Below, piece by piece: positions 2,720 to 14,803 of a stretch of 64,000 nucleotides of DNA. How positions within the stretch are numbered: position 1 is the first letter of the stretch; every line of letters starts with the position of its first letter. The stretch is from Streptomyces sp. 8K308. Lineage in GTDB: Bacteria; Actinomycetota; Actinomycetes; Streptomycetales; Streptomycetaceae. The position numbers were made by a program, and so were the translations under genes. The stretch spans positions 1 to 64,000 of the forward strand of contig NZ_SMKC01000005.1 of assembly GCF_004348315.1 (NCBI RefSeq), given 5' to 3'. The notes beneath the pieces are model-generated. The model did not search any database. It saw only the letters and a program-made list of their open reading frames with translations, and was not told where the DNA came from.

Positions 2720-3556
2720 CTAGGCCGGGCAGGCCCCGAACAGGTCGTGCAGCAGCGGGTAAAAACGGCGGCGCGCGGCCCGGCGGAGGTAGTCCACGCC
2801 GCTGGTCCCGCCAGTGCCAGGCGTGTCGCCGATGAGGCGGGCGGCGAGGTCGGCGTGGCGGGTCCGCCAGGCGACGACCTCCTCGTCGTACGCGTACAGG
2901 TGGGCCACCAGCCGCCGCAGCTCGCCGGTACCGGGCTCCTGCCCGGCGGCGATCCGGGCCAGGGTCGCGGGCAGACTGTCCTCTCCCGCGGCTTCCCCCA
3001 CGTCCCGCCCGCCGGTGTCCAGTTCGCGCAGGAGGTGCCGGAGACCGTCCCACACGCTGGGCTCGGCCAGGCGTCGCAGCACCGCGTCCCGTTCCTCGGG
3101 TCCCAGGCCGGCGCAGGCCCGCTCGGGCGGGACGGGCGCCTCCCGCCCGGAGAGGAACTCCAGCTCCCGGAACTGGGCCGACTGGAGCCCGCTGGCCGGC
3201 GCCAGCGCGTCGCGGAACTCGGCGAAGTCGGCGGGGGTCATGAACTCCAGGACGGCCAGTTGCTCCAGCAGCACCCGGCCGACGACGTGGATCCGTTCGA
3301 AGACGCGGGACGCCGCGGCGGGCCGGCCGGCGAACATCTCGTCGCGCACCAGTTCCAGGTCGGCCAGCAGCAGCTTGAACCACAGCTCGTAGGTTTGGTG
3401 CGTGACGATGAACGCCAGCTCGTCCCGGGCGGGCGGCCGCACAACGGGCACCTGGGCGGTGAGCAGGTCGGCCAGGCGCAGGTAGCCGCAGTAGGTCAGG
3501 GGGCCGGACGGCGGTAGCCCTGACGGGGACGCCGGTACGGAGGAAGCGGTCGCCAT
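2720..3556 (-). CDS. kynA: Tryptophan 2,3-dioxygenase
   Basis: This 278-residue protein has the full set of heme-dependent tryptophan 2,3-dioxygenase landmarks. FIVTHQTYELWFK (49-61) carries the distal His53, and SGLQSAQFRELEF holds the Arg130 that binds the substrate carboxylate in the family. WRTRH (230-234) supplies the proximal heme ligand His234, and GTGGTSGVDYL (247-257) is the mobile loop. The reaction opens the indole ring of L-Trp with O2 to give N-formylkynurenine. It is the last gene of a four-gene minus-strand operon: ATG 3556 follows the upstream stop by 2 bp, and GTGAC-type spacing implies coupling. A formamidase-like hydrolase divergent at 6859 would give kynurenine. No kynureninase or kynurenine 3-monooxygenase lies in the window, which argues against plain catabolism. 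Confidence 0.92.
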   Translation of the reverse strand: MATASSVPASPSGLPPSGPLTYCGYLRLADLLTAQVPVVRPPARDELAFIVTHQTYELWFKLLLADLELVRDEMFAGRPAAASRVFERIHVVGRVLLEQLAVLEFMTPADFAEFRDALAPASGLQSAQFRELEFLSGREAPVPPERACAGLGPEERDAVLRRLAEPSVWDGLRHLLRELDTGGRDVGEAAGEDSLPATLARIAAGQEPGTGELRRLVAHLYAYDEEVVAWRTRHADLAARLIGDTPGTGGTSGVDYLRRAARRRFYPLLHDLFGACPA

Positions 3557-3558
3557 GG

Positions 3559-4530
3559 TCACTCGCCCCCGTCCCCCGCAACCAGCCCGTGGCGGGCGAA
3601 CTCCTCGTAGGCGCCGGGCACGTCGAAGACCCCGGCGGAGCGGCACATCCGCACGGTGGACCGGGTGATGGAGCGGATGCGCTCCCGGTCGGTCGCCATG
3701 TGGTCGTCGACGACCCCGGCGATGACGTCGGCGTCGACCCCGGCCAGGGCGAGGGACGCGCGGGCCGGCCCGAGGTCGGCGGCGAGGCAGTCGTGGATCA
3801 GGGCAGGCAGGGCGTGGGCGGCCAGGGCGCGGTGCCGGGCGTCGAGCGCGTGCCACAGCCGGTGGAAGTAGCCGGAGAAGAAGCGGTGGTGGCGGCCCTC
3901 GTCCCGGGCGTGGTCCCGCATGAGGTCGCGGACCGTCGTGATGACCGTGGTGTCGCCGGGCAGCTCGTTGAGGACGGCGGTGATCAGCGTCTCGAATACG
4001 ACGACCTGTAAGAGCCCGGCGAGGACGGGTTCGCCGGGCAGCAGCCGGTTGGCCGTCGCGACGAGCCGGTCGACGAACCGGCCGTAGTCCCAGTCGGGTA
4101 CCGGCACGCCGGTGGTGTCGGCGATCTGGTGGGCCAGGTCGAGGCTGTACAGGGCGTGGTAGCCCTCGTCGCAGTAGACCTTGAACGCGTCCAGCCGGTC
4201 GTCCGGTGTCAGTTCGACGCCGCTGCGGCCGTTGGCGATCCGCTCGGCCGCGGTGTTGACGACCCGCGTCTCCATGTGGGTGGTCGATATCAGGAACTGG
4301 TACAGGTGCCGCAGCGCGAGCGCGGAGCGCTGCTGCCGGTCCAGGCCGGCCAGGAGCGGGTGGTCGAGGAAGGGCACCAGGCGTTCGGGGAAGAAGACCT
4401 TGCCCTGGTCGCTCTCGTCGTGGAAGAGCCGGCGTACGCCCGAGCGCACCCCCGCGGCGGTGTACCACTCGGCGAAGGGTCCCGTCGCTCCGGCGTCTGC
4501 GCCGTCCGGGGCCGGTGTCGCGGTCGTCAT
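3559..4530 (-). CDS. AurF-type non-heme diiron N-oxygenase
   Basis: A 323-residue protein of the p-aminobenzoate N-oxygenase (AurF) family. The seven iron ligands of AurF can all be placed with matching spacing: Glu87 (HMETR), Glu122 and His125 (DEGYH), Glu180 (FETL), and His207, Glu211 and His214 (HARDEGRHH). AurF oxidises an aromatic amine to hydroxylamine, nitroso and nitro forms. Other relatives act on different amines, so only oxygenation, probably N-oxygenation, can be claimed. It sits 16 bp after the aminotransferase-like gene and 2 bp before the tryptophan dioxygenase. The obvious candidate substrate is therefore the free aryl amine of kynurenine or a derivative. No redox partner gene is adjacent. 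Confidence 0.88.
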   Translation of the reverse strand: MTTATPAPDGADAGATGPFAEWYTAAGVRSGVRRLFHDESDQGKVFFPERLVPFLDHPLLAGLDRQQRSALALRHLYQFLISTTHMETRVVNTAAERIANGRSGVELTPDDRLDAFKVYCDEGYHALYSLDLAHQIADTTGVPVPDWDYGRFVDRLVATANRLLPGEPVLAGLLQVVVFETLITAVLNELPGDTTVITTVRDLMRDHARDEGRHHRFFSGYFHRLWHALDARHRALAAHALPALIHDCLAADLGPARASLALAGVDADVIAGVVDDHMATDRERIRSITRSTVRMCRSAGVFDVPGAYEEFARHGLVAGDGGE

Positions 4531-4546
4531 CTCCTGCTGTACTCCG

Positions 4547-5839
4547 TCATCGTGTCCGTCGGGTCGGTGGTCTTCGCCGCGTGCGCGCGGCGAGCAGCCC
4601 GCCCAGGCGCTCGACGGCCACGCGGACGGTGGTGGGTTCGGTGGTGTGGCACATCCGGAACCAGCCGGGTTCGGGGGCGGCGAACATCCCGCCGGGCAGC
4701 ATGCTGACCCGGCGGTTCTCGAACAGCTCGCGCCACAGGGCCTCCTCGGCCGCGTGCGCGGTGTCGGGGCCAGACGCGCCGGTGGGCAGGGCCGCCCGCA
4801 GGTCGAGCCACACGGAGAAGCCCGCCTCGGCCGGCAGGTGGGGCACGCCGTGGTGCTCCAGCGCGCCGGTCGCGGCGGCGTACGAGGCGCCCAGCCGGCG
4901 TCGCCCGGCGGCCAGGTACCGCGCGACCCAGCCGGGGTCGTCGGTCAGGAGCCACGCCAGCAGTTCCTGGGTCTGGGTGGACAACGGCGCGAAGTAGGCC
5001 AGTTCGCGGGCCGCGGCCAGGACGTCCGGCGCGGTGGTGTGCAGGACGCCCGCCTTGAAGCCGGGGAGGGCGAAGTCCTTGGCGAAGCCCCACACCACGT
5101 GGACCCGTTCCGGGGGCAGCGGCGAGCCGGTGGCGGCGTCAGCGGCGCTGACGAACCGCCGGGGCCCGAAGACGCTGTGGGCGTACAGCTCGTCGCTGAT
5201 GACGTCGAGGTCCAGTTCGGCGGCCACGGCCAGCAGCCGGCGCAGGACCTCCGCCGGGTAGACCTGCCCCAGCGGGTTCGACGGCGACGACAGCGCCAGG
5301 GCCCGCACGGGGACGCCGTCGCGCCGGGCGCGCTCCACGGCGTGGCGTACGGCGTCCGGCGCGAGGGCGAACCCGTCGGCGGGCGACAGCGGGGCGGGCA
5401 GCAGCCGGGCACCGGACCGGCCCGCGAGGTCGACATCGAATGCCCCGTAGTAGGGGGCCGGGACGACGATCCCGTCGCCGGGGTCGCACAGCGCGGTGGC
5501 GACGACGTCCAGCGCGGTGGTGGCGCCAGCGACGACCACGAGGTGGCCGGGGTCCACCGGGGTGGCACGTGAGGTGGCCGACAGGAACGCGGCGATCGCC
5601 TCGCGCAGCCGCGCCGAGCCGTGGAGCGGCGCGTACCGGGTGGTGGCGGCGTCGGGCGGCGGGGCCTCGGCGAGGCGGGGCGCCAGCAGGTCCGCCACGA
5701 GCCGGTTCTCGGCGGTGCCGAGGTTGACGTAGCCGCCGGGGTTGCGTTCCGGGTGATACGGGTCGGCCTCGGCGCGGAAGTGCGCGGCGGCGATGGGCGG
5801 TGACGCCTTGACCAGCCGGCCCGCCTGTCGGGACACCAT
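4547..5839 (-). CDS. PLP-dependent ACC-synthase-like / class I aminotransferase
   Basis: A 430-residue fold-type I PLP enzyme. It has NLGTAEN (39-45), the SSPSNPLG motif (184-191), ISDELYAHS with the PLP-contacting Asp216, and WGFAKDFALPGFKAG with the Schiff-base Lys254. NLGTAEN and SKDFGLPGF-like signatures are those of the 1-aminocyclopropane-1-carboxylate synthase branch, which also contains ordinary aminotransferases, C-S lyases and capreomycidine-synthase-type cyclases. The exact reaction cannot be chosen from sequence. In this operon it could transaminate kynurenine, or eliminate or cyclise at its amino-acid side chain. ATG 5839 lies 2 bp past the stop of the SDR gene, so translation is coupled. 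A 16-bp gap leads to the diiron oxygenase gene. Confidence 0.87.
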   Translation of the reverse strand: MVSRQAGRLVKASPPIAAAHFRAEADPYHPERNPGGYVNLGTAENRLVADLLAPRLAEAPPPDAATTRYAPLHGSARLREAIAAFLSATSRATPVDPGHLVVVAGATTALDVVATALCDPGDGIVVPAPYYGAFDVDLAGRSGARLLPAPLSPADGFALAPDAVRHAVERARRDGVPVRALALSSPSNPLGQVYPAEVLRRLLAVAAELDLDVISDELYAHSVFGPRRFVSAADAATGSPLPPERVHVVWGFAKDFALPGFKAGVLHTTAPDVLAAARELAYFAPLSTQTQELLAWLLTDDPGWVARYLAAGRRRLGASYAAATGALEHHGVPHLPAEAGFSVWLDLRAALPTGASGPDTAHAAEEALWRELFENRRVSMLPGGMFAAPEPGWFRMCHTTEPTTVRVAVERLGGLLAARTRRRPPTRRTR

Positions 5840-5841
5840 CG

Positions 5842-6699
5842 TCACCACCCCCGCCCGGCCTGCCCGGTCCAGTCGTCGTGGCCCGGGGTGCGGTCCAGGG
5901 CGGCCGGGTCGCTGCCCAGCCCGAGCGAGGCGTCGACGACGGCCCCCCGCAGGATCCGGGCCGGCTCCTCGCACAGCCACCACAGGACGTCGGCGACCTC
6001 CGCGGGCTCGATGAGCCTTCCGCCGGGCAGCCCCGAGGTGAGGGCCCGCAGCCGGCCGGGGTCCAGACCGTCGAGGGTGCTGGCGCGGAACATCCCGGTG
6101 TCGACGGCCCCCGGGCACACCGCGAACACGTCGACCGGCAGGGCCGACCACTGGGCCGCCAGGTGCCGCGTCAGGTAGGCGACGGCGGCCTTGCTCATGC
6201 CGTCCGCTACGTCGAACTGGGGGAACACGGCGACGCCGCCGCCGACGCTGGAGACGTTGAGGACCTTGCCATAGCCGCGGGCGATCATCGCGGGGGCGAA
6301 CTGCCGCACCAGCCACAGCGGCCCGAGGCAGTTGACGCGCAGGAACGCGGCGTCCCGGTCGGGGCCGGGCTCCGGCGCGTGGCGGGCCACGGTGGCCGAG
6401 CCCACGGCCGCGTTGTTGACCAGGACGTCCACCCGGCTGCCGGCGAGCGCCCGGCCCAGTTCCTCGTGGCTGTCCCGCTCCCCCTGCCGGAAGGCGAGCG
6501 CCGTGACCTCGTGGCCCTCGGCCGCCAGCTCCGTCACCAGCTCCTCCGCCGGTCCGACACCGCTGTGGTAGGTGAAGAACACCCGGTCCCCGGCGCGGGC
6601 GAACCGGCGCACCGCGGCCGCGCCGATGCCGCGCGACCCCCCGGTGACCAGTACGCCGCGACGCGTCCGCGCGTCCGTGTCCGCACTCGTTTCCCGCAC
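5842..6699 (-). CDS. Atypical short-chain dehydrogenase lacking the catalytic Tyr
   Basis: A 285-residue classical-size SDR and first gene of the minus-strand operon. The NAD(P)-binding TGGSRGIG (19-26) and the structural VNNA (94-97) are intact, and NVSSVGG (148-154) has the active-site Ser. The Tyr of the YxxxK motif is replaced: the local sequence is DVADGMSK, with Lys170 but Asp166 where Tyr should be. Such proteins are usually poor oxidoreductases, so it may have another role or an unusual proton donor. The GTG start at 6699 has AGGAAGGA five bases upstream. The operon order SDR, PLP enzyme, diiron oxygenase, tryptophan dioxygenase is tightly packed. Confidence 0.85.
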   Translation of the reverse strand: MRETSADTDARTRRGVLVTGGSRGIGAAAVRRFARAGDRVFFTYHSGVGPAEELVTELAAEGHEVTALAFRQGERDSHEELGRALAGSRVDVLVNNAAVGSATVARHAPEPGPDRDAAFLRVNCLGPLWLVRQFAPAMIARGYGKVLNVSSVGGGVAVFPQFDVADGMSKAAVAYLTRHLAAQWSALPVDVFAVCPGAVDTGMFRASTLDGLDPGRLRALTSGLPGGRLIEPAEVADVLWWLCEEPARILRGAVVDASLGLGSDPAALDRTPGHDDWTGQAGRGW

Positions 6700-6757
6700 G
6701 GGTCCTTCCTACCGGCGGTCGGCGGGTGGAGTCCCCGAAGTCGTCGGCAGCCGCCAC

Positions 6758-6800
6758 GACTTGTCCAAGTCGCCGGTGAGCAGCGCGACTTGTCCATGTC
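6758..6800. promoter_or_regulatory. Paired dyad operator between the kynurenine-type operons
   Basis: The intergenic region between the SDR start (6699) and the hydrolase start (6859) holds a perfect dyad GACTTGTCCAAGTC at 6758-6771. A second copy with one mismatch, GACTTGTCCATGTC, lies at 6787-6800. The copies are 29 bp apart, about three helical turns. Two similar dyads in a divergent promoter suggest a dimeric repressor or activator controlling both directions. No regulator gene is adjacent, so the protein is unknown. A TTGGAC hexamer (minus) lies inside the first dyad, but no good -10 was found. Confidence 0.5.
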
Positions 6801-6858
6801 GGCGGGCCGCCGCGGGCCGTCCCGCTGCTAGGGTCGCGGCGCCGAGAGGAGGTTCCGC

Positions 6859-7668
6859 GTGACCGAGGCGACCGAGGACCGCTCCGTCCTGACCCGGCCC
6901 GCTCCCGCGCCCGACGAGGTGCTGCGCTACGGCCCGGACACCGCCCACCACGTGGCCGACGTCTGGCGGCCGGCGCCGGGCGCCGCGACGGGCCGCCCGC
7001 CCGTGGTGTTCCTGCACGGCGGGTTCTGGCGGCCCGACTACGACCGCGGCCACACGCGCCCGCTGGCGGCGGCGCTGCGCGACGCCGGCTGGCCGGTCGT
7101 CTCCGCCGAGTACCGCCGGGTGCCGGGCCGGCCCGACCTGACGACCGCGGACGTCCGGGCCGTGCTCACGGCCCTCGCCGCGCTGCCCGGCGACGCCCCC
7201 GGCGGCACTCGCAGCGGATACGTCCTGGCCGGCCACTCCGCCGGCGGTCACCTGGCGCTGTGGGCGGCGGCCGCGCCCGGCGTGCCGCCGCCACTGGGCA
7301 CGCTGGCCCTGGCCCCGGTCGCCGATCTGCGGCTGGCCCACGACCTGGCGCTGGACGAGGACGCCGTCCACGCGTTTCTCGGCGCCGGTCCGGGCGGGCG
7401 CCCGGACCTGGACCCCGTCCGTGCTCCGGGGCCCGGCTCGCCGGTGACGATCCTGCACGGGGCGGCGGACCGGATCGTGCCCCCGGCCGTCGCCGCGTCG
7501 TACGCGGCGGCCCATCCCGGCACCCGGCTGGTCCGCCTGCCCGGCGCCGGCCACTTCGCGGTGATCGACCCGCTCAGCGCCGCCTGGCCGGCGGTGCCGG
7601 CGGCACTGGCCGAGCTGGGTGGCCCGTCCGGCCCGGACGGCCGTCCCGGGGCGACGGCACCGGACTGA
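6859..7668 (+). CDS. Alpha/beta hydrolase, kynurenine-formamidase-like
   Basis: A 269-residue alpha/beta hydrolase. HGGFW (53-57) is the oxyanion-hole motif characteristic of the esterase-type kynurenine formamidases. The nucleophile elbow is GHSAGGH with Ser127. An acid in HGAADRIVPP and the His in GAGHFAVIDP complete the triad. Hydrolysis of N-formylkynurenine to kynurenine and formate fits the tryptophan dioxygenase in the divergent operon; without that neighbour one would only say carboxylesterase. The GTG start is preceded by GAGAGGAGG (6844-6852), six bases away. It shares the operator region 6758-6800 with the minus-strand operon, so both halves of the route are probably co-regulated. 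Confidence 0.8.
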   Translation: MTEATEDRSVLTRPAPAPDEVLRYGPDTAHHVADVWRPAPGAATGRPPVVFLHGGFWRPDYDRGHTRPLAAALRDAGWPVVSAEYRRVPGRPDLTTADVRAVLTALAALPGDAPGGTRSGYVLAGHSAGGHLALWAAAAPGVPPPLGTLALAPVADLRLAHDLALDEDAVHAFLGAGPGGRPDLDPVRAPGPGSPVTILHGAADRIVPPAVAASYAAAHPGTRLVRLPGAGHFAVIDPLSAAWPAVPAALAELGGPSGPDGRPGATAPD

Positions 7669-8342: not shown

Positions 8343-9167
8343 TCACTTCATGCCGGTCGTGGAGATACCGGCGATGAAGCCGCGCTGGGCCACCAGGAAG
8401 AGGAGGAGGGGAGGCAGGACGTACATCACGGCGCCCGCGGCCATCAGGTTGAGGAGCGGGTTGCCGGCCGCGTCGGTGTAGGCGCTGGTCAGGGCGACGG
8501 CCAGGGTGGTCTTGTCGGCGCTGAGCAGCAGCGACGGGGCAATGAAGTCGCCCCAGGTCCAGCCGAAGGAGATGACGAGGCTGGCGGCGATGGCCGGCCA
8601 GGACTGCGGCAGGAAGATCCGGAAGAAGATGCCGGTGTAGGAACAGCCGTCGACGATCGCCGCCTCCTCCATCTCACGCGGCAGGCCGACGAAGAACTGC
8701 CGGAACAGGAAGATCAGGAACGGCGCGCCGGCCAGCCCCCACAGCACCCACGGCCAGTAGGTGTTGATCATGTTCAGCCGGGCGAAGACCAGGTAGGTGG
8801 GGATGAGGGTGATGATCTGCGGCAGCATCATGGTGCTCAGCAGCGCCGCGAACATCGGACGCTTGCCGGGGGCGGACAGCCGGGCGAAGCCGAAGCCCAC
8901 CCAGGCCGAGCTGAGGGTGACCAGGACCGAGTAGATGCCCGCGATGATCAGCGAGTTGCGGGTGTACCCGAGGTAGTTGACGCCGTTCCAGGCGTCGGCG
9001 AAGTTGTGCCACTGGAAGTTCTCGGGTAGCCAGCGGATGGGGAGGGCGGCCAGTTCGTCGGGGGCCTTGAGGGCGGTGATCAGCAGCCAGCCGAAGGGGC
9101 CGAGGAGGAGTCCGGTGACGAGGACCAGGACGGTGTAGAGAGCAAGGCGGGGCGCGTTGAGCTTCAC
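8343..9167 (-). CDS. Carbohydrate ABC transporter permease (MalG type)
   Basis: A 274-residue integral membrane protein with about six hydrophobic segments. The permease coupling loop EEAAIVDGCSYTGIFFRI has the EAA..DG signature that docks on the ATPase. Length and the C-terminal GFIAGISTTGMK tail fit the second permease of CUT1 sugar importers. Its GTG start overlaps the previous gene's TGA (GTGA at 9164-9167). No ATPase gene is present. Streptomycete CUT1 systems commonly share the MsiK ATPase encoded elsewhere, which is inferred here. The neighbouring galactonate dehydratase suggests a galactose- or galactonate-containing substrate. Confidence 0.9.
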   Translation of the reverse strand: MKLNAPRLALYTVLVLVTGLLLGPFGWLLITALKAPDELAALPIRWLPENFQWHNFADAWNGVNYLGYTRNSLIIAGIYSVLVTLSSAWVGFGFARLSAPGKRPMFAALLSTMMLPQIITLIPTYLVFARLNMINTYWPWVLWGLAGAPFLIFLFRQFFVGLPREMEEAAIVDGCSYTGIFFRIFLPQSWPAIAASLVISFGWTWGDFIAPSLLLSADKTTLAVALTSAYTDAAGNPLLNLMAAGAVMYVLPPLLLFLVAQRGFIAGISTTGMK

Positions 9168-10159
9168 TTCTTCGCCTCCGGTTCGACGTTGTAGAACACC
9201 GCGCCGCTGGTGGCCTTGAAGATCAGGGCGGTGACGACGACGATCACCGCGAACAGGATCCACAGCAGGGCGGAGGCGTATCCGAAGCGCCCGTACGCGA
9301 AGTACTGCGCGAACACGTTAATCATGTACATGTAGTTGTCTTGCGGCACGGTGGTGGTCCCGGCCATGCTGCTGTCCGCGGCGAGCAGCAGCGGCATGAA
9401 CGTCTGGAGCGCGCCTATGACTCCGGTCACGCCCTGGAACAGGAGCACCGGGGAGAGCAGTGGCAGGGTGATGCTGCGGAACGACCGCCAAGCACTGGCG
9501 CCGTCGACGCGGGCCGCCTCCTGGAGCTCGCGGGGGATGTCCTGCAGGCCCGCCAGGGAGATGATCATGGTGTTGCCCAGCGCCCACAGAACGCTCATCA
9601 GGATGACGTAGCGGGCGTACGGGTCGGCCAGCCAGGCCACGGCGTCCATGCCGAAGAAGTCCAGGACGCCGTTGGTCGCGCCGGCGTTGGTGTCGAAGAT
9701 CAGCTTGAAGGTGATCGCCGTGCCCACCGGCGGGATGACCGCGGGCAGGTACATCAGGGTGCGGAACAGGCCCCGTGCCTTCAGCGGGCGGTTGACCAGG
9801 ACCGCGAGCACGAGGCCGCCGATCATCGTCATGGGCACGCTGATCAGGGTGAACCACGCGGTCCGGCCCAGCGACTGGCGCATCACCGGGTCGCTGAGCG
9901 CCTCGCGGTAGTTCTCCAGGCCGACGAAGCGCCAGTTCGGCGAGATGGCGTCGAAGTTGGTGAAGCTCAGCCACAGCGCGTAGCCCATCGGGAACGCCGT
10001 CAGCAGCACGAAGCCCACGAGCCAGGGGGCGGTGAACATGTAGAACGCCCGGCGCCGCCGGACGGCCATCGAGCTGGAGCGGCCGGTCGCCGCCGCGCCG
10101 GGCGCGCGCTCCGCCCGCGTGGCGGGGCCGGGCACCGCCCGTATCTCTTCGACGGTCAT
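9164..10159 (-). CDS. Carbohydrate ABC transporter permease (MalF type)
   Basis: A 331-residue permease with a Pro/Ala/Arg-rich cytoplasmic N-terminus of about 35 residues, then six or more membrane spans starting at YMFTAPWLVGFVLL. The coupling loop is LQEAARVDGASAWRSF. This is the MalF-like subunit of a CUT1 importer. ATG 10159 overlaps the stop of the binding-protein gene (ATGA), and its own stop overlaps the next gene (GTGA). The three genes are therefore translationally coupled as binding protein, MalF-type, MalG-type. Confidence 0.9.
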   Translation of the reverse strand: MTVEEIRAVPGPATRAERAPGAAATGRSSSMAVRRRRAFYMFTAPWLVGFVLLTAFPMGYALWLSFTNFDAISPNWRFVGLENYREALSDPVMRQSLGRTAWFTLISVPMTMIGGLVLAVLVNRPLKARGLFRTLMYLPAVIPPVGTAITFKLIFDTNAGATNGVLDFFGMDAVAWLADPYARYVILMSVLWALGNTMIISLAGLQDIPRELQEAARVDGASAWRSFRSITLPLLSPVLLFQGVTGVIGALQTFMPLLLAADSSMAGTTTVPQDNYMYMINVFAQYFAYGRFGYASALLWILFAVIVVVTALIFKATSGAVFYNVEPEAKK

Positions 10160-11496
10160 GACACGAGCTCCTTGCCGAGGTCCATTTGGTGGTTCATGCC
10201 TTCGTTCAGCTCGCGGACCAGGACGTCCAGGGGCTTGTCGCCGCGCATCGCCGCGGGCAGCGCCTGGTTCAGCACGGAGTCGAGGGCGGTGGAGCGCGCG
10301 TACGGGGTGAACGAGAGGGTCGAGAAGTACTCCAGCTCCGCGTTCTGGACCCGCAGCGCCTGCTGCTGGTAGAGCTGCTCGCTGGGCATCAGCGAACGGA
10401 GCGACAGCAGGGTGGGGATGCCCCAGCCGCCCGACGCCCGGCCCTGGGCCGGGCCCTCGCCGAAGAACCACTCGAACAGCCGCCACGCGGTGTCCTTGTT
10501 CCGCGCCTTCCTCGGCATCCAGAACCCGGTTCCCGACTGGCAGGTGCTGATCCTGGGCCGGCCGGCGAACTGGGGAGCCGGCGCGAGCCGCGAGGCGGCG
10601 GCGATCTCCGGGGACGAGGTGCCGACAAGGCCACCGAACCAGTAGCCCGAGTTGGACATCGCCAGCCGGCCGGCCTGGTAGGTCGGGCCGTCCCAGACGT
10701 TGGGATCGGGGTTGATCAGGCTGGGGCCGACCCGGGACTGGGCGTACTCGAGGTACCAGGTGAGGGCCTGCCGGGCCTCCGGGCTGGAGAAGTCCACCCG
10801 GCTCAGATCGTCGCTGAACAGTTGCCCGCCCGCGGCCGCGGTGATGGTCATCAGGTTCACGAGGGGGCCCAGGCCGTTGGCGCTCATGCCGAAGACGGTG
10901 GTACGACCGCCGTCCCGCTGGGCCAGCCGCTGCCCCAGGTCCAGCCATTCTTCGTACGTCAGCGGCTGGTCGTCCGGCGGGTAGTCGGAGACCCCGACCT
11001 GCTCGAACAGCGCGGTGTTGTACCAGAACATCGAGTCCTGGGAGTAGTCCTTGGCCATGCCGTAGCGGGGGCCCACGCCCTGACGCCGGCCGTCGAACCG
11101 CCACAGATCGTTGACCGGGTCCAGGTCGTCGACCCTCAGGATCGAACTGCGGGCGAAGTACGGGTCCAGGTCCTCGGCGGCCTCCCGCGCGACGAGGTAG
11201 GGGGTGTCGACCGCCCCCAGGCCCCGCACCAGGTCCGGCGGCTGGCCGCTGGCCAGCATCGCGGTCAGCCGGGTGGGGTCGTACGTGACGATATCGATTC
11301 GGATGTCCAGCTGCTCGGCGGCCAGCTGGACCAGCTCCGGCGATATGTCGTCGGCCGTCGCCATGACCGTGACCGGGTGCCGGCCGGCGCCCTGAGCGAC
11401 CGAGAGGGCACAGCCGGACAGGGCGGCCGTGCCAACGGCGGCCGACAGACCGAGGAAGCGGCGACGACTCAGCGAGACGTCGAGGCGTGCGTGCAT
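10156..11496 (-). CDS. Sugar-binding lipoprotein, Tat-exported (ABC transporter)
   Basis: A 446-residue extracellular solute-binding protein. The N-terminus has the twin-arginine motif SRRRFLGL and a lipobox LSGC near residue 30, so it should be exported folded and lipid-anchored. The body has the SBP-family pattern DPTRLTAMLASGQPPDLV, FWYNTALFEQVGV and YEEWLDLGQRLA. ATG 11496 is chosen; GTG 11502 two codons upstream is also possible, with GGGAAAGGGTGG ahead. It is first in the three-gene importer operon. The promoter shares a palindrome with the divergent ROK gene, which predicts induction by the imported sugar. Confidence 0.9.
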   Translation of the reverse strand: MHARLDVSLSRRRFLGLSAAVGTAALSGCALSVAQGAGRHPVTVMATADDISPELVQLAAEQLDIRIDIVTYDPTRLTAMLASGQPPDLVRGLGAVDTPYLVAREAAEDLDPYFARSSILRVDDLDPVNDLWRFDGRRQGVGPRYGMAKDYSQDSMFWYNTALFEQVGVSDYPPDDQPLTYEEWLDLGQRLAQRDGGRTTVFGMSANGLGPLVNLMTITAAAGGQLFSDDLSRVDFSSPEARQALTWYLEYAQSRVGPSLINPDPNVWDGPTYQAGRLAMSNSGYWFGGLVGTSSPEIAAASRLAPAPQFAGRPRISTCQSGTGFWMPRKARNKDTAWRLFEWFFGEGPAQGRASGGWGIPTLLSLRSLMPSEQLYQQQALRVQNAELEYFSTLSFTPYARSTALDSVLNQALPAAMRGDKPLDVLVRELNEGMNHQMDLGKELVS

Positions 11497-11540
11497 GAGC
11501 ACACCACCCTTTCCCGAAGGTGTGCGTATAAGTGGGGCAG

Positions 11541-11569
11541 AGCCTGTGCCTGGGTGGAATCCGTGTCAA
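11541..11569 (-). promoter_or_regulatory. Sigma-70-type promoter of the ABC operon
   Basis: The minus strand has a perfect -35 TTGACA (11564-11569), a 17-bp spacer and a weak -10 CAGGCT (11541-11546). The -35 lies within the shared palindrome 11565-11579. The expected start is near 11534, leaving a 38-nt leader before ATG 11496. Confidence 0.5.
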
Positions 11570-11579
11570 GAGTCTTGAC
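11565..11579. promoter_or_regulatory. Palindromic operator shared by the ROK gene and the ABC operon
   Basis: GTCAAGAGTCTTGAC is a perfect 7-1-7 inverted repeat. It overlaps the -35 hexamers of both divergent promoters: TTGACA on the minus strand and TTGACG on the plus strand. A dimer bound here would block both promoters at once. The ROK-family regulator encoded at 11613 is the natural candidate, so autoregulation plus control of the importer is inferred. Confidence 0.6.
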
Positions 11580-11603
11580 GCACTTTCGAAACAGCCCTGT
11601 AAT
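11575..11603 (+). promoter_or_regulatory. Promoter of the ROK gene, giving a leaderless mRNA
   Basis: TTGACG at 11575-11580 and TGTAAT at 11598-11603 are separated by 17 bp. Transcription would start about 7 bp downstream, near 11610, and the ATG is at 11613. The message would thus be leaderless or nearly so. This agrees with the lack of any Shine-Dalgarno sequence ahead of that ATG. Confidence 0.55.
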
Positions 11604-11612
11604 CTATCCCCC

Positions 11613-12830
11613 ATGCGCCAGAAGTCCGGAGGATCACTGCAGGGGCTGCGACGGACCAACCAAGAACGGGTGTTGGCCCTCCTGCTCGCGGACGGGCCCC
11701 TGCACCGGGCCGCGCTCGCGCGCCGGGCCGGAGTCTCCAGAACTACGGTGTCCACGATCGTCAGCGACCTGATGGCCCGCGGCCTGGTCGTCCAGTCCGA
11801 CGAAGAGCCGGGCGACGACCACGACGGGCGGGCCCGGGACTTGCTGTCCATCAACCCGGACGCGGCCGCCGTCGTGGGCATGAACCACGCCTTCGACGGT
11901 GTCTGGGTGCACCTCGGCGACCTCTCAGGACAGCGGATCGCCGGCCGGGGCACCCCCCTGGACCCCGATTGCGGCCCCGCCGAGCGGATCGCCGCCGGCC
12001 TGGGCGTCCTGCGGGAGCTGCTGGACGAGCACGATCTGCGGACCGAGCAGATACTGGGCGCCGGCATCGGCGTGCCCGGGCCGATCGACCACACCACCGG
12101 CGTCGTCGGAGTGTCCCTGCCCGGCGAGCCCTGGTCACACGTCCACGTCCTGGAGGAGTTCGAGCGCGCCCTGGGGCTGCCCGTCGCCGTCGAGAACAAC
12201 ACCCGGCTGGAGGCAGTCGCCGAGGCCCGCTGGGGCGCCGGCCGCGGGGTGCGGAACCTGCTGTACGTCGGCCTGTCCAACGGCATCGCCGCGGGCCTCA
12301 TCCTCGACGGGCGGCTCTACCGCGGCGCGATCGGGGCCGCCGGCGAGCTGGGACACCTGTCGGTGAGCATCGACGGCCCGCCGTGCCGCTGTGGCAACCG
12401 CGGCTGCCTGGTCCTGCACGCCGGCATCCCCGCCGTGCTCGCCGCGCTCCGCCCCGTCTTCGGGGAGGGCACCGGCCTGGACGAGGTCCTGTCCCGCACC
12501 GCGGCCGGGGACCGGGCCGGCGAGGGGGTGTTCTCTGATGTCGGCACGGTCGTCGGCCAGGTGCTGGCCAACCTGTGCAACCTCCTGAACCCCGAACGTG
12601 TGATCGTCGGCGGCGAGATCGCCCAGGCCGGAGAGGCGTTGCTGGGCCCGCTGCGGACCGCCGTTCGCCGGTACGCGCTGTCCCCGGTCCGGGACGTGGA
12701 CGTGGTGCCGGCCGAGCTGGGCCTCGGCGGCCGGGTCGGTGCGCTCGGCGGCGCGGCGCTCGTCCTCGGCGAGACCGCGGACCTGGCCGCGTCGCTCAAC
12801 CGCTTCACCGTCCGGCGGGCCACGACATGA
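11613..12830 (+). CDS. ROK-family transcriptional regulator
   Basis: A 405-residue protein with an N-terminal winged helix (about residues 15-75, including AALARRAGVSRTTVSTIV) and a C-terminal ROK sugar-kinase-like domain. It shows GIGVPGPID, an NN.R..AEARWGAGRG pattern, GELGH, and the zinc cluster CRCGNRGCL. Such proteins usually repress sugar operons and release DNA on binding a sugar or sugar phosphate. ATG 11613 is preferred because the promoter predicts transcription from about 11610; an upstream in-frame ATG at 11532 lies in the promoter and is rejected. The gene leads a plus-strand set with the SDR and galactonate dehydratase, and it faces the importer genes. Confidence 0.9.
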   Translation: MRQKSGGSLQGLRRTNQERVLALLLADGPLHRAALARRAGVSRTTVSTIVSDLMARGLVVQSDEEPGDDHDGRARDLLSINPDAAAVVGMNHAFDGVWVHLGDLSGQRIAGRGTPLDPDCGPAERIAAGLGVLRELLDEHDLRTEQILGAGIGVPGPIDHTTGVVGVSLPGEPWSHVHVLEEFERALGLPVAVENNTRLEAVAEARWGAGRGVRNLLYVGLSNGIAAGLILDGRLYRGAIGAAGELGHLSVSIDGPPCRCGNRGCLVLHAGIPAVLAALRPVFGEGTGLDEVLSRTAAGDRAGEGVFSDVGTVVGQVLANLCNLLNPERVIVGGEIAQAGEALLGPLRTAVRRYALSPVRDVDVVPAELGLGGRVGALGGAALVLGETADLAASLNRFTVRRATT

Positions 12831-12873
12831 CGCGGCTCACGCGCACCCCCGCCTCCGCCATCGAGGAGTCCGC

Positions 12874-13623
12874 ATGACCAGTACCCGGTTCGAGGGAAAG
12901 GTCGCGGTCGTCACCGGCGGCGGCGACGGCATCGGCGCCGCGTGCGCGCGCCGCCTCGCCGCCGAGGGAGCCGCCGTCGTCATCGCGGACATCGACGAGG
13001 CGGCGGGCGAGCGGGTGGCCGCCGCGCTGCGCGCCGACGGCCATCGGGCCGACGCCGTCTTCTGCGACGTGGCCGTCGCGGCCGACTGGCAGCGCCTGTC
13101 CGAGACCGTGCTCAACCGCCACGGCCGCGTCGACGTCCTCGTCTCCAACGCCTACGCGATCGCCATCCGGCCCGCGCACGAGCTGCCTGAGGGGGACTGG
13201 GACCGTGTGGTGGACGTCTGCCTCAAGGCCACCTACCTCGGGGTCCGCGCTCTCCACGCCCCGCTGCTCGCCGCGCACGGCAGAATCGTCGCCGTCTCCT
13301 CCGTCCACGCCCGCCAGGGCCGGGCGGGGTTCGCCGCCTACGCCGCCGCCAAGGGTGGCCTGGAGGCCCTGGTCCGGCAGCTGTCCGTCGAGTACGGCCC
13401 CGCTGTCCGGGTCAACGCGGTGACCTGCGGTCCCATCGCCACCGCCCAGTGGCGGTACACCACGGCGGCCGACCAGCGGGCCGAGGCCGAGAACACCGTC
13501 CTTCGCCGGTTCGGCACCTCCGAGGAGGTCGCTGCCGCGGTGGCGTTCCTCGCCTCGGACGACGCCGCCTACACCACCGGCGCGGCACTGCCCATCGACG
13601 GCGGATGGAGCGTCCGGCTGTGA
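12874..13623 (+). CDS. SDR oxidoreductase, probable sugar dehydrogenase
   Basis: A 249-residue classical SDR. It has TGGGDGIGAACA for dinucleotide binding, VSNAYAI in place of the usual NNAG, AVSSVHARQG with the active-site Ser, and YAAAKGG as the YxxxK site. The end GAALPIDGGWSV is the standard C-terminal SDR motif. GAGGAG at 12863-12868 precedes ATG 12874. Its place between the ROK regulator and galactonate dehydratase suggests oxidation of galactose (or a galactose-like sugar) to the lactone. That role is inferred from context only. Confidence 0.85.
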   Translation: MTSTRFEGKVAVVTGGGDGIGAACARRLAAEGAAVVIADIDEAAGERVAAALRADGHRADAVFCDVAVAADWQRLSETVLNRHGRVDVLVSNAYAIAIRPAHELPEGDWDRVVDVCLKATYLGVRALHAPLLAAHGRIVAVSSVHARQGRAGFAAYAAAKGGLEALVRQLSVEYGPAVRVNAVTCGPIATAQWRYTTAADQRAEAENTVLRRFGTSEEVAAAVAFLASDDAAYTTGAALPIDGGWSVRL

Positions 13624-13657
13624 CGGCCGCCGCCCATCCCCACCTACCGGAGCTGTG

Positions 13658-14803
13658 ATGAAGATCGTCAGTATCGAGACCTTCCTGGTGCCGCCGCGCT
13701 GGCTCTTCGTGCGTGTCGAGACTGATCAGGGCATCGCCGGCTGGGGCGAGCCCATCGTGGAGGGACGCGCCGAGACGGTCGCCACCGCCGTAGAGGAGCT
13801 GTCCCACCTGCTCCTCGGCGCCGACCCCCGCCGGATCGAGGACCACTGGCAGGTGCTGGCCAAGGGCGGTTTCTACCGCGGCGGCCCGGTGCTCTCCAGC
13901 GCCCTGGCGGGAATCGACCAGGCCCTGTGGGATATCAAGGGCCGGGCGCTGGACGTCCCCGTGTACGAGTTGCTGGGCGGCCCGGTGCGGGAGAAGGCTC
14001 GGGTCTACCGCTGGATAGGCGGCCGGGACGCCGCCGAACTCGCCGAGGCGGGGCGGCGCGCCATCGCCCAGGGCTACACCGCCGTCAAGTGCAACGTCAG
14101 CGCCCAGCTGCGGCACCTCGACAGCGCGGCGGCGGTGCGCGGCGTGATGGAGCAGCTGACCGCGCTACGCGAGGCGGTCGGCTGGGATGTGGACATCGCC
14201 TTGGACTTCCACGGCCGGTTCTCCACCGCCATGGCCCGCCGGACCCTCCCCCTCCTGGAGCCGCTGCTGCCGATGTTCGTCGAGGAGCCGGTGCTGCCCG
14301 AGTTCTCCCGGGACCTGGCCGCCGTCGCCGCAGGCACCTCCGTCCCGCTGGCCGTCGGCGAACGCCTGTACTCCCGCTGGGACTTCCGGGACGTCCTGCC
14401 CACCGGCATCGCCGTCGCCCAGCCGGACCTGTGCCACGCCGGCGGCATCTCGGAGGCCCGTCGCATCGCCGCCATGGCCGAGGCGTACGACGTGGCGTTC
14501 GCCCCGCACTGCCCGCTGGGCCCGATCGCCCTGGCGGCCAGTCTCCAGGTCGACTTCGCGACACCGAACTTCCTCATCCAGGAACAGAGCCTCGACATCC
14601 ACGCCCCCGACGACAACGAGCTGCTCGCCGTCCTCGCCGACCCCGGCTGCTTCCGCTTCGCCGACGGTCACGTCGAGCGGCCCCTCGGCCCCGGGCTCGG
14701 CATCGAGATCGACGAGGACACGGTGCGCCACATGGCTGCCAAGGGGCACCGCTGGCGCAACCAGATCTGGCGGCACGCCGACGGCTCGTTCGCCGAGTGG
14801 TGA
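13658..14803 (+). CDS. dgoD: D-galactonate dehydratase (enolase superfamily)
   Basis: A 381-residue mandelate-racemase/enolase-superfamily protein. MKIVSIETFLVPPRWLFVRV, GWGEPIVEGRAETVA, KGGFYRGGPVLSSALAGIDQ and ALDFHGR are characteristic of galactonate dehydratases. The Mg ligands are the Asp of the DFHGR strand and the Glu residues of VEEP and GERLYSR. Catalytic His residues are those of DFHGR and APHCPLGP. The reaction removes water from D-galactonate to give 2-keto-3-deoxygalactonate (De Ley-Doudoroff route). ATG 13658 has GGAG six bases upstream; a GTG one codon earlier is possible. The later steps (KDGal kinase and aldolase) are not in the window. Confidence 0.88.
   Translation: MKIVSIETFLVPPRWLFVRVETDQGIAGWGEPIVEGRAETVATAVEELSHLLLGADPRRIEDHWQVLAKGGFYRGGPVLSSALAGIDQALWDIKGRALDVPVYELLGGPVREKARVYRWIGGRDAAELAEAGRRAIAQGYTAVKCNVSAQLRHLDSAAAVRGVMEQLTALREAVGWDVDIALDFHGRFSTAMARRTLPLLEPLLPMFVEEPVLPEFSRDLAAVAAGTSVPLAVGERLYSRWDFRDVLPTGIAVAQPDLCHAGGISEARRIAAMAEAYDVAFAPHCPLGPIALAASLQVDFATPNFLIQEQSLDIHAPDDNELLAVLADPGCFRFADGHVERPLGPGLGIEIDEDTVRHMAAKGHRWRNQIWRHADGSFAEW

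Follow-up and report, generated by a model that had tools for sequence, protein, structure and literature searches.

A stretch of 64,000 nucleotides from Streptomyces sp. 8K308 (contig NZ_SMKC01000005.1, positions 1 to 64,000; below, the window) carries five adjacent genes at positions 2720 to 7668, which are a real and conserved minimal set and most likely lead from tryptophan via kynurenine to an N-oxygenated product. Four of the genes are a single operon on the minus strand, coding for a short-chain dehydrogenase/reductase (SDR), a pyridoxal 5'-phosphate (PLP) enzyme, a diiron oxygenase of the AurF type and a tryptophan dioxygenase (TDO), and the fifth, on the other strand, codes for an alpha/beta hydrolase. 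We find it rather probable that this minimal operon turns L-tryptophan into a small N-oxygenated metabolite derived from kynurenine. The combination of genes is not met in the open-access literature that was searched, and every one of the enzymes comes from a known family.

The gene set and its conservation

The first gene of the operon, at 5842..6699, encodes the SDR, in which Asp166 takes the place of the catalytic Tyr (PF00106, 116.4 bits). It is followed on the same strand by the genes for a fold-type I PLP enzyme resembling 1-aminocyclopropane-1-carboxylate (ACC) synthase and proposed to be a kynurenine aminotransferase (4547..5845; PF00155, 195.6 bits), for the AurF-type ferritin-like diiron oxygenase (3559..4530; PF11583, 84.9 bits against a cut-off of 29.6) and for the TDO homologue (2720..3562; PF03301, 139.4 bits). 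At the junctions the genes either overlap by 4 to 7 nt, the exact figure varying with the start codon chosen, or are separated by 16 nt. Both the TDO and the PLP gene have a possible GTG start that overlaps the preceding stop codon, with an ATG close behind; the TDO GTG and the stop of the AurF-type gene overlap by 4 nt. The hydrolase gene (6859..7668, plus strand; Abhydrolase_6, 40.2 bits), proposed to encode a kynurenine formamidase with an HGGFW motif, begins 159 bp from the SDR gene and is divergent to it. The best Pfam matches of all five proteins (Trp_dioxygenase, AurF, Aminotran_1_2, adh_short and Abhydrolase_6) exceed the curated cut-offs. A first-pass annotation, made from the letters of the window, had placed five genes here in these families, and the open reading frames and Pfam scores agree with it; the residues that it had listed for the TDO, the diiron ligands, Lys254 of the PLP enzyme, the Asp of the SDR and the HGGFW motif were all found in the sequence.

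When a genome collection was scanned with the PLP alignment, 55 loci were obtained, in 26 of which (L049-L074) the PLP relative reaches 46% identity or more. All four core genes were present in 20 of these 26, which is the conservation in relatives on which the annotation had made its proposal depend. Three other loci are truncated where their contig stops (L050, L069 and L074; in the genome of L050 the diiron gene lies at the start of another contig), two contain the SDR and PLP genes alone (L055 and L058), and one, L073, is a kynurenine-degradation operon. The 20 complete loci, the three cut ones and the window make up the 24 cassettes referred to below. The gene order SDR-PLP-AurF-TDO is kept in 19 of the 20 complete loci, the exception being Catellatospora with AurF-TDO-SDR-PLP. 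Besides this genus the hosts are Streptomyces, Kitasatospora, Amycolatopsis, Kutzneria, Actinokineospora, Frankia, Protofrankia, Sphaerisporangium, Allonocardiopsis and one Streptosporangiaceae isolate, so the cassette recurs in several actinobacterial families, with mostly overlapping genes and with flanks that vary by group.

The diiron enzyme had a match at E<=1e-8 in 29 of 391 genomes of the window's order, and four of the 391 besides the window's own carry the SDR, PLP, AurF and TDO genes together. Diiron enzymes of the close form (at least 59% identity) were found in 5/391 genomes and the SDR (E<=1e-45) in 5/383, and these are the same five genomes. The recurrence in differing flanks and this co-occurrence of SDR and diiron enzyme imply that the gene set is more than a product of chance. 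On plasmids, relatives of the diiron enzyme with less than 60% identity were present on 8 records; no cassette set was seen near the match in the four annotated stretches of the five examined, the fifth (Burkholderia) being without annotated features. Matches to the PLP enzyme occurred on 197 plasmid records, all below 60% identity, the best among the matches listed being 29%.

Residue counts given below refer to rows taken from L049-L074 and the window at profile score thresholds of 350 bits for the PLP enzyme and SDR, 400 for AurF and 150 for the TDO and the hydrolase (KFA). The L069 TDO, a fragment at a contig end, and the L050 AurF protein, on its other contig, were left out, and L032-L035, the same records as L065, L054, L060 and L051, were counted once. 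Genes outside the window were called with a simple custom caller and their starts are approximate; since it missed some genes, profile searches of open frames decided whether a gene was counted as present.

Proposed supply and use of kynurenine

The supply of kynurenine by the TDO and the hydrolase, as predicted from their sequences, is well supported. In the TDO the GTGGTSG motif is intact and His53, Arg115 and His234 (55, 117 and 236 when counted from GTG) are in place, at positions that we take to be those of the heme His, the distal His and the tryptophan-binding Arg. The proximal His and Arg117 are found in 22/22 rows and the distal His in 21/22. A quick tree of 35 TDOs placed the TDOs of the cassettes, the window's included, in one group with the sole TDO found in Kribbella monticola, with 98% support in the SH-like approximate likelihood ratio test (SH-aLRT), and nine of the twelve other TDOs compared fell outside that group. 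Long branches were flagged in this tree, the window TDO among them, as well as in the AurF tree, and deep placements in both are therefore unsure. The K. monticola TDO lies on a different contig from the kynurenine operon of that genome. Nine of the twelve non-cassette TDOs (L133-L136, L138, L139 and L142-L144) have Thr (8) or Ser (1) at the position of the distal His of the Xanthomonas TDO.

The hydrolase has the HGGFW motif and conserved Ser127, Asp204 and His232, and the HGGxW motif and the Ser, Asp and His were present in 6/6 rows. With the hydrolase of the K. monticola kynurenine operon it shares 58.6% identity. An HGG[FY]W hydrolase accompanies 13 of the 24 cassettes, five of them having the window type (one 7 kb away) and eight a second subfamily. 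The recruitment of two subfamilies suggests that formamidase activity is part of the pathway. Of the five-gene set that had been described, the core of four is thus stable, and the hydrolase is not a constant member of it. The role given to TDO and hydrolase as the source of kynurenine is supported by homology and the Kribbella context. L049, L051 and L052 also have, at a distance of about 5.7 kb from the cassette, an HGGxW protein (about 510 residues) of another family, which is outside the 13.

The nearest non-cassette relatives found for the TDO, the hydrolase and the PLP enzyme are all from Kribbella, the latter two from inside a kynurenine catabolic operon (L073, L109 and L110) in which they are adjacent to one another. 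Families recognised in the K. monticola operon are a flavin adenine dinucleotide (FAD)-binding monooxygenase, an aldehyde dehydrogenase, a RidA-type protein, 3-hydroxyanthranilate dioxygenase (3-HAO) and Amidohydro_2; its kynureninase was named by eye, and matches to that protein adjoin TDO in several other genomes. Such a setting could mean that the operon of the window detoxifies or degrades tryptophan or kynurenine and makes no dedicated metabolite, since the genome in which three of its genes have their nearest non-cassette relatives also carries an operon for kynurenine degradation. We regard this as quite improbable. In contrast to the Kribbella operon with its kynureninase, FAD monooxygenase and 3-HAO, the cassette has no downstream catabolic gene, and the Kribbella locus has no Asp-type SDR and the K. 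monticola genome no match to the diiron enzyme. Kynureninase, which the annotation had reported as missing, gave 0 matches at E<=1e-10 in the draft genome of the window (703 contigs totalling 7.76 Mb; kynurenine 3-monooxygenase was not part of the search). Furthermore, although the window genome has a single TDO locus, that of the cassette, 19 of the 22 other cassette genomes searched have a further one, so that the cassette TDO is an extra copy there.

The PLP enzyme, with its catalytic Lys at position 254 from ATG (256 from GTG), probably acts on kynurenine, as an aminotransferase. The main reason for this reading of the sequence is that its relatives sit in Kribbella kynurenine operons, which also supports the link to kynurenine that the annotation had proposed. 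It is 46-48% identical to the K. monticola PLP enzyme that adjoins the hydrolase, and in all three Kribbella-group genomes with a relative at E<=1e-40 the gene lies beside the hydrolase in one operon. Eight residues beyond the catalytic Lys, 27/27 rows have Lys where ACC synthase has Arg, and Lys is also seen at this place in mammalian kynurenine aminotransferases.

The closest solved relatives of the PLP enzyme are the plant ACC synthases (tomato ACC synthase, E 8.4e-71), with which it has a Glu (Glu46, 26/27 rows) and the N-terminal region in common. Its best NCBIfam match is GntC, and the SDR and PLP genes travel together. It is conceivable from this that kynurenine first has its side-chain ketone reduced by the SDR and that the PLP enzyme, by a gamma-chemistry of the ACC synthase or GntC kind, then eliminates the resulting gamma-hydroxyl to form a cyclopropane or 2,1-benzisoxazoline ring. 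However, the GntC score of 138.9 is far below the cut-off of 415, and the enzyme differs from ACC synthase not only in the Lys for Arg but also at Tyr85 (tomato numbering), which is Leu in 25/27 and Pro in 2/27 rows when aligned with the tomato enzyme, matches of up to 300 residues being dropped. The SDR that would perform the reduction lacks the catalytic Tyr in every row, and the Kribbella PLP enzyme has no Asp-type SDR beside it. Gamma-chemistry seems very doubtful to us compared with transamination of kynurenine. A further set of 27 distant loci resembling ACC synthase (L076-L102) includes about 25 actinobacterial PLP enzymes with a common WGFAKDF motif; other than the PLP family, no family of neighbouring genes was common to more than five of these loci.

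The proposed N-oxygenation step

All seven ligands of the diiron enzyme, E87, E122, H125, E180, H207, E211 and H214, are present in 23/23 rows. Six metal ligands and a seventh His are given for AurF-type N-oxygenases in the accessible part of PMC13061610, and the cassette enzyme has both. Its model (pLDDT, the predicted local distance difference test score, 82.9) matched CmlI with a fold Z of 25.5 and AurF with 24.4, the next family reaching 14.5, so that it has the Pfam family, the fold and the ligands, the extra His included, in common with AurF, CmlI and AzoC. The cassette enzymes form one clade in a tree of 55 proteins (support 100/99). The identity to AurF and CmlI is about 20%, and the AurF equivalog model gave 21.7 bits where its cut-off is 620. 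The name AurF-type that the enzyme was first given consequently holds for the ligands and the fold, whereas neither the equivalog score nor the grouping in the tree joins it to AurF and CmlI. By analogy, oxygenation of the aniline nitrogen of kynurenine by this enzyme is plausible.

Another possibility, which we think rather unlikely, is that oxygen is added by the diiron enzyme to a carbon or to an aliphatic nitrogen, be it the kynurenine alpha-amine or that of a later amino acid, and that the product is an oxime, a hydroxylamine or a hydroxylated compound. The tree neighbours of the cassette clade are an NRPS-associated protein (L015, with the larger region L044; NRPS, nonribosomal peptide synthetase) and the sets L007-L014. 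The regions of the latter (L036-L043, AurF relatives of about 48-51% identity) contain OTC-like genes in 8/8, PALP genes in 6/8 and OCD genes in 5/8, as named by Pfam on L042 and L036. Two residues of AurF, Tyr93 and Arg96, whose numbers and roles towards the substrate we presume, align with Phe79 (23/23 rows) and Ser82 (20/23, with Ala in 3/23), a replacement that also fits an aliphatic nitrogen. HamC, acting on valine, and TsnB7, acting on glutamine, are cited as diiron N-oxygenases in the accessible parts of PMC6783550 and PMC11659414. Against an aliphatic target stands the PLP enzyme, which needs a free alpha-amine, and oxygenation of that nitrogen would therefore have to follow or replace the PLP step. 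The HamC and PvfB-type pathways (fragin and valdiazen) are likewise small clusters around an AurF-like N-oxygenase, but their valine is tethered to an NRPS, whereas free kynurenine would be expected for the cassette.

The L036-L043 regions also contain methyltransferase and PhyH genes, likewise named by Pfam on L042 and L036; the OTC-like protein is a carbamoyltransferase, the PALP protein is SbnA-like and the OCD protein SbnB-like. They possibly belong to a separate pathway based on diaminopropionate or urea; alanosine was considered as their identity and not retained. More distant AurF relatives (36-39% identity; L045-L048 and L123) have asparagine synthase genes nearby and in 4/5 PqqD-like genes, a context resembling clusters for lasso peptides or other ribosomally synthesized and post-translationally modified peptides (neighbours named by Pfam on L046, and from the annotation for L123).

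The annotation was right in reporting an SDR with Asp for the catalytic Tyr: Asp166, Ser151 and Lys170 were each found in 25/25 rows. The Rossmann motif TGGS.G.G and the NNA motif are invariant. The model (pLDDT 83.1) has a normal ketoreductase fold, and the best Foldseek matches were the angucycline and actinorhodin ketoreductases. In L055 and L058 the SDR stays with the PLP enzyme in genomes with no diiron match at E<=1e-10 and with no neighbouring TDO, and for this reason we place the SDR step on or after the product of the PLP enzyme.

In the pathway we favour, N-formylkynurenine would arise from tryptophan through the TDO, and L-kynurenine would be released from it by an HGG[FY]W hydrolase, own or borrowed, two steps that are well supported by homology and context. 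Gene context suggests that kynurenine then becomes the substrate of the PLP enzyme, which is most likely an aminotransferase, and the 2-keto product would close to a 4-quinolone-2-carboxylate of the kynurenic acid type. The diiron enzyme would add oxygen to a nitrogen. Its target would most likely be the aniline nitrogen of kynurenine while the ring is still open, and the product would then be N-hydroxy-4-quinolone-2-carboxylate or a related nitroso or nitro compound. It is possible, and we say it tentatively, that the cassettes make an undescribed family of actinobacterial metabolites without NRPS or polyketide synthase (PKS), namely an aniline-N-oxygenated kynurenine product such as N-hydroxy-4-quinolone-2-carboxylate (possibly a metal ligand or signal). 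The diiron N-oxygenase would in that case act on a substrate new to such enzymes, and the SDR, with Asp in place of Tyr, would finish the product in a non-classical step. No NRPS or PKS was found among the seven flanking proteins of the window tested, the check being confined to those seven. Quinaldic acid and actinomycin-type branches also use TDO, formamidase and aminotransferase, on the way to quinoline acids or anthranilates; they are linked to NRPSs, and we know of no AurF-type enzyme in them.

A number of observations weigh against a route from tryptophan through kynurenine to aniline N-oxygenation. The TDO reaches 146.5 of the 390.7 bits of the TIGR03036 equivalog cut-off and is, with 39-44% identity, the least conserved part of the cassette, and 11 of the 24 cassettes have no hydrolase of either subfamily in the examined stretch, some stretches being cut short. 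The PLP gene is missing at E<=1e-40 from 35 of the 38 Kribbella-group genomes, and no kynurenine genes were recognised near PLP relatives of about 40-42% identity in three genomes of another family (L120-L122; proteins read in one of the three). AurF and CmlI fall in a separate clade of six rows with support 100/100 on a branch of 3.76, among the long branches flagged. The OTC, PALP and OCD neighbourhoods of the nearest diiron relatives suggest amino-acid-derived aliphatic amines as substrates, and the SDR-PLP pair occurs in two draft genomes without the diiron enzyme. Described members of the family oxidise aryl amines, carrier-bound valine, glutamine and hydrazones (in the accessible parts of PMC13061610, PMC6783550 and PMC11659414), a diversity which implies that the substrate cannot be read from family membership.

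If the proposed pathway is true, N-oxygenated tryptophan metabolites are open to many actinobacteria by a new route that needs no more than a very small cassette. It would also extend the AurF-type diiron enzymes by a substrate class, give an enzyme resembling ACC synthase a role with kynurenine, and supply a natural, conserved case of an SDR with Asp for Tyr. No paper on such a pathway was found in the open-access literature, outside which most subscription papers lie, and none of the matches listed there combined AurF and kynurenine. Cluster finders based on NRPS and PKS cores would probably miss the cassette. Its small size, five genes, allows direct reconstruction and testing.

Intergenic region and neighbouring genes

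The region between the divergent genes contains an operator-like palindrome, CGACTTG-TC-CAAGTCG (CGACTTGTCCAAGTCG, 6757..6772, plus strand), which matches the pattern with 0 mismatches, and 29 bp further on a second, imperfect copy (CGACTTGTCCATGTCG, 6786..6801, plus strand). The sites at 6757 and 6786 are the only 0-mismatch pattern matches in the window's genome. With up to two mismatches allowed, 19 palindrome matches were obtained compared to 34 for the reversed control, which makes the weaker matches meaningless. A search of 144 loci returned the palindrome from two pieces of the window's own genome and from nowhere else. Judged from their sequence, the two palindromes may tie both transcripts to one regulator.

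The surroundings of the cassette differ between hosts. A pirin-family gene follows it in five Streptomyces genomes (L063, L064, L065, L068 and L074; named by Pfam on L065). Beside it in Amycolatopsis (L061, L070 and L072, about 12.9-16 kb) lie an O-methyltransferase and another TDO-like protein, divergent and about 400 aa long, which in L061 has a C-terminal PF03301 match of 32.4 bits, below the cut-off; the two are perhaps a tailoring extension. In the window the left flank holds a DUF3626 protein (967-1905), and the right flank (8343-14803), with parts of an ATP-binding cassette (ABC) transporter, a ROK regulator, another SDR and an enolase-family gene, is apparently a sugar-acid locus unrelated to the cassette.

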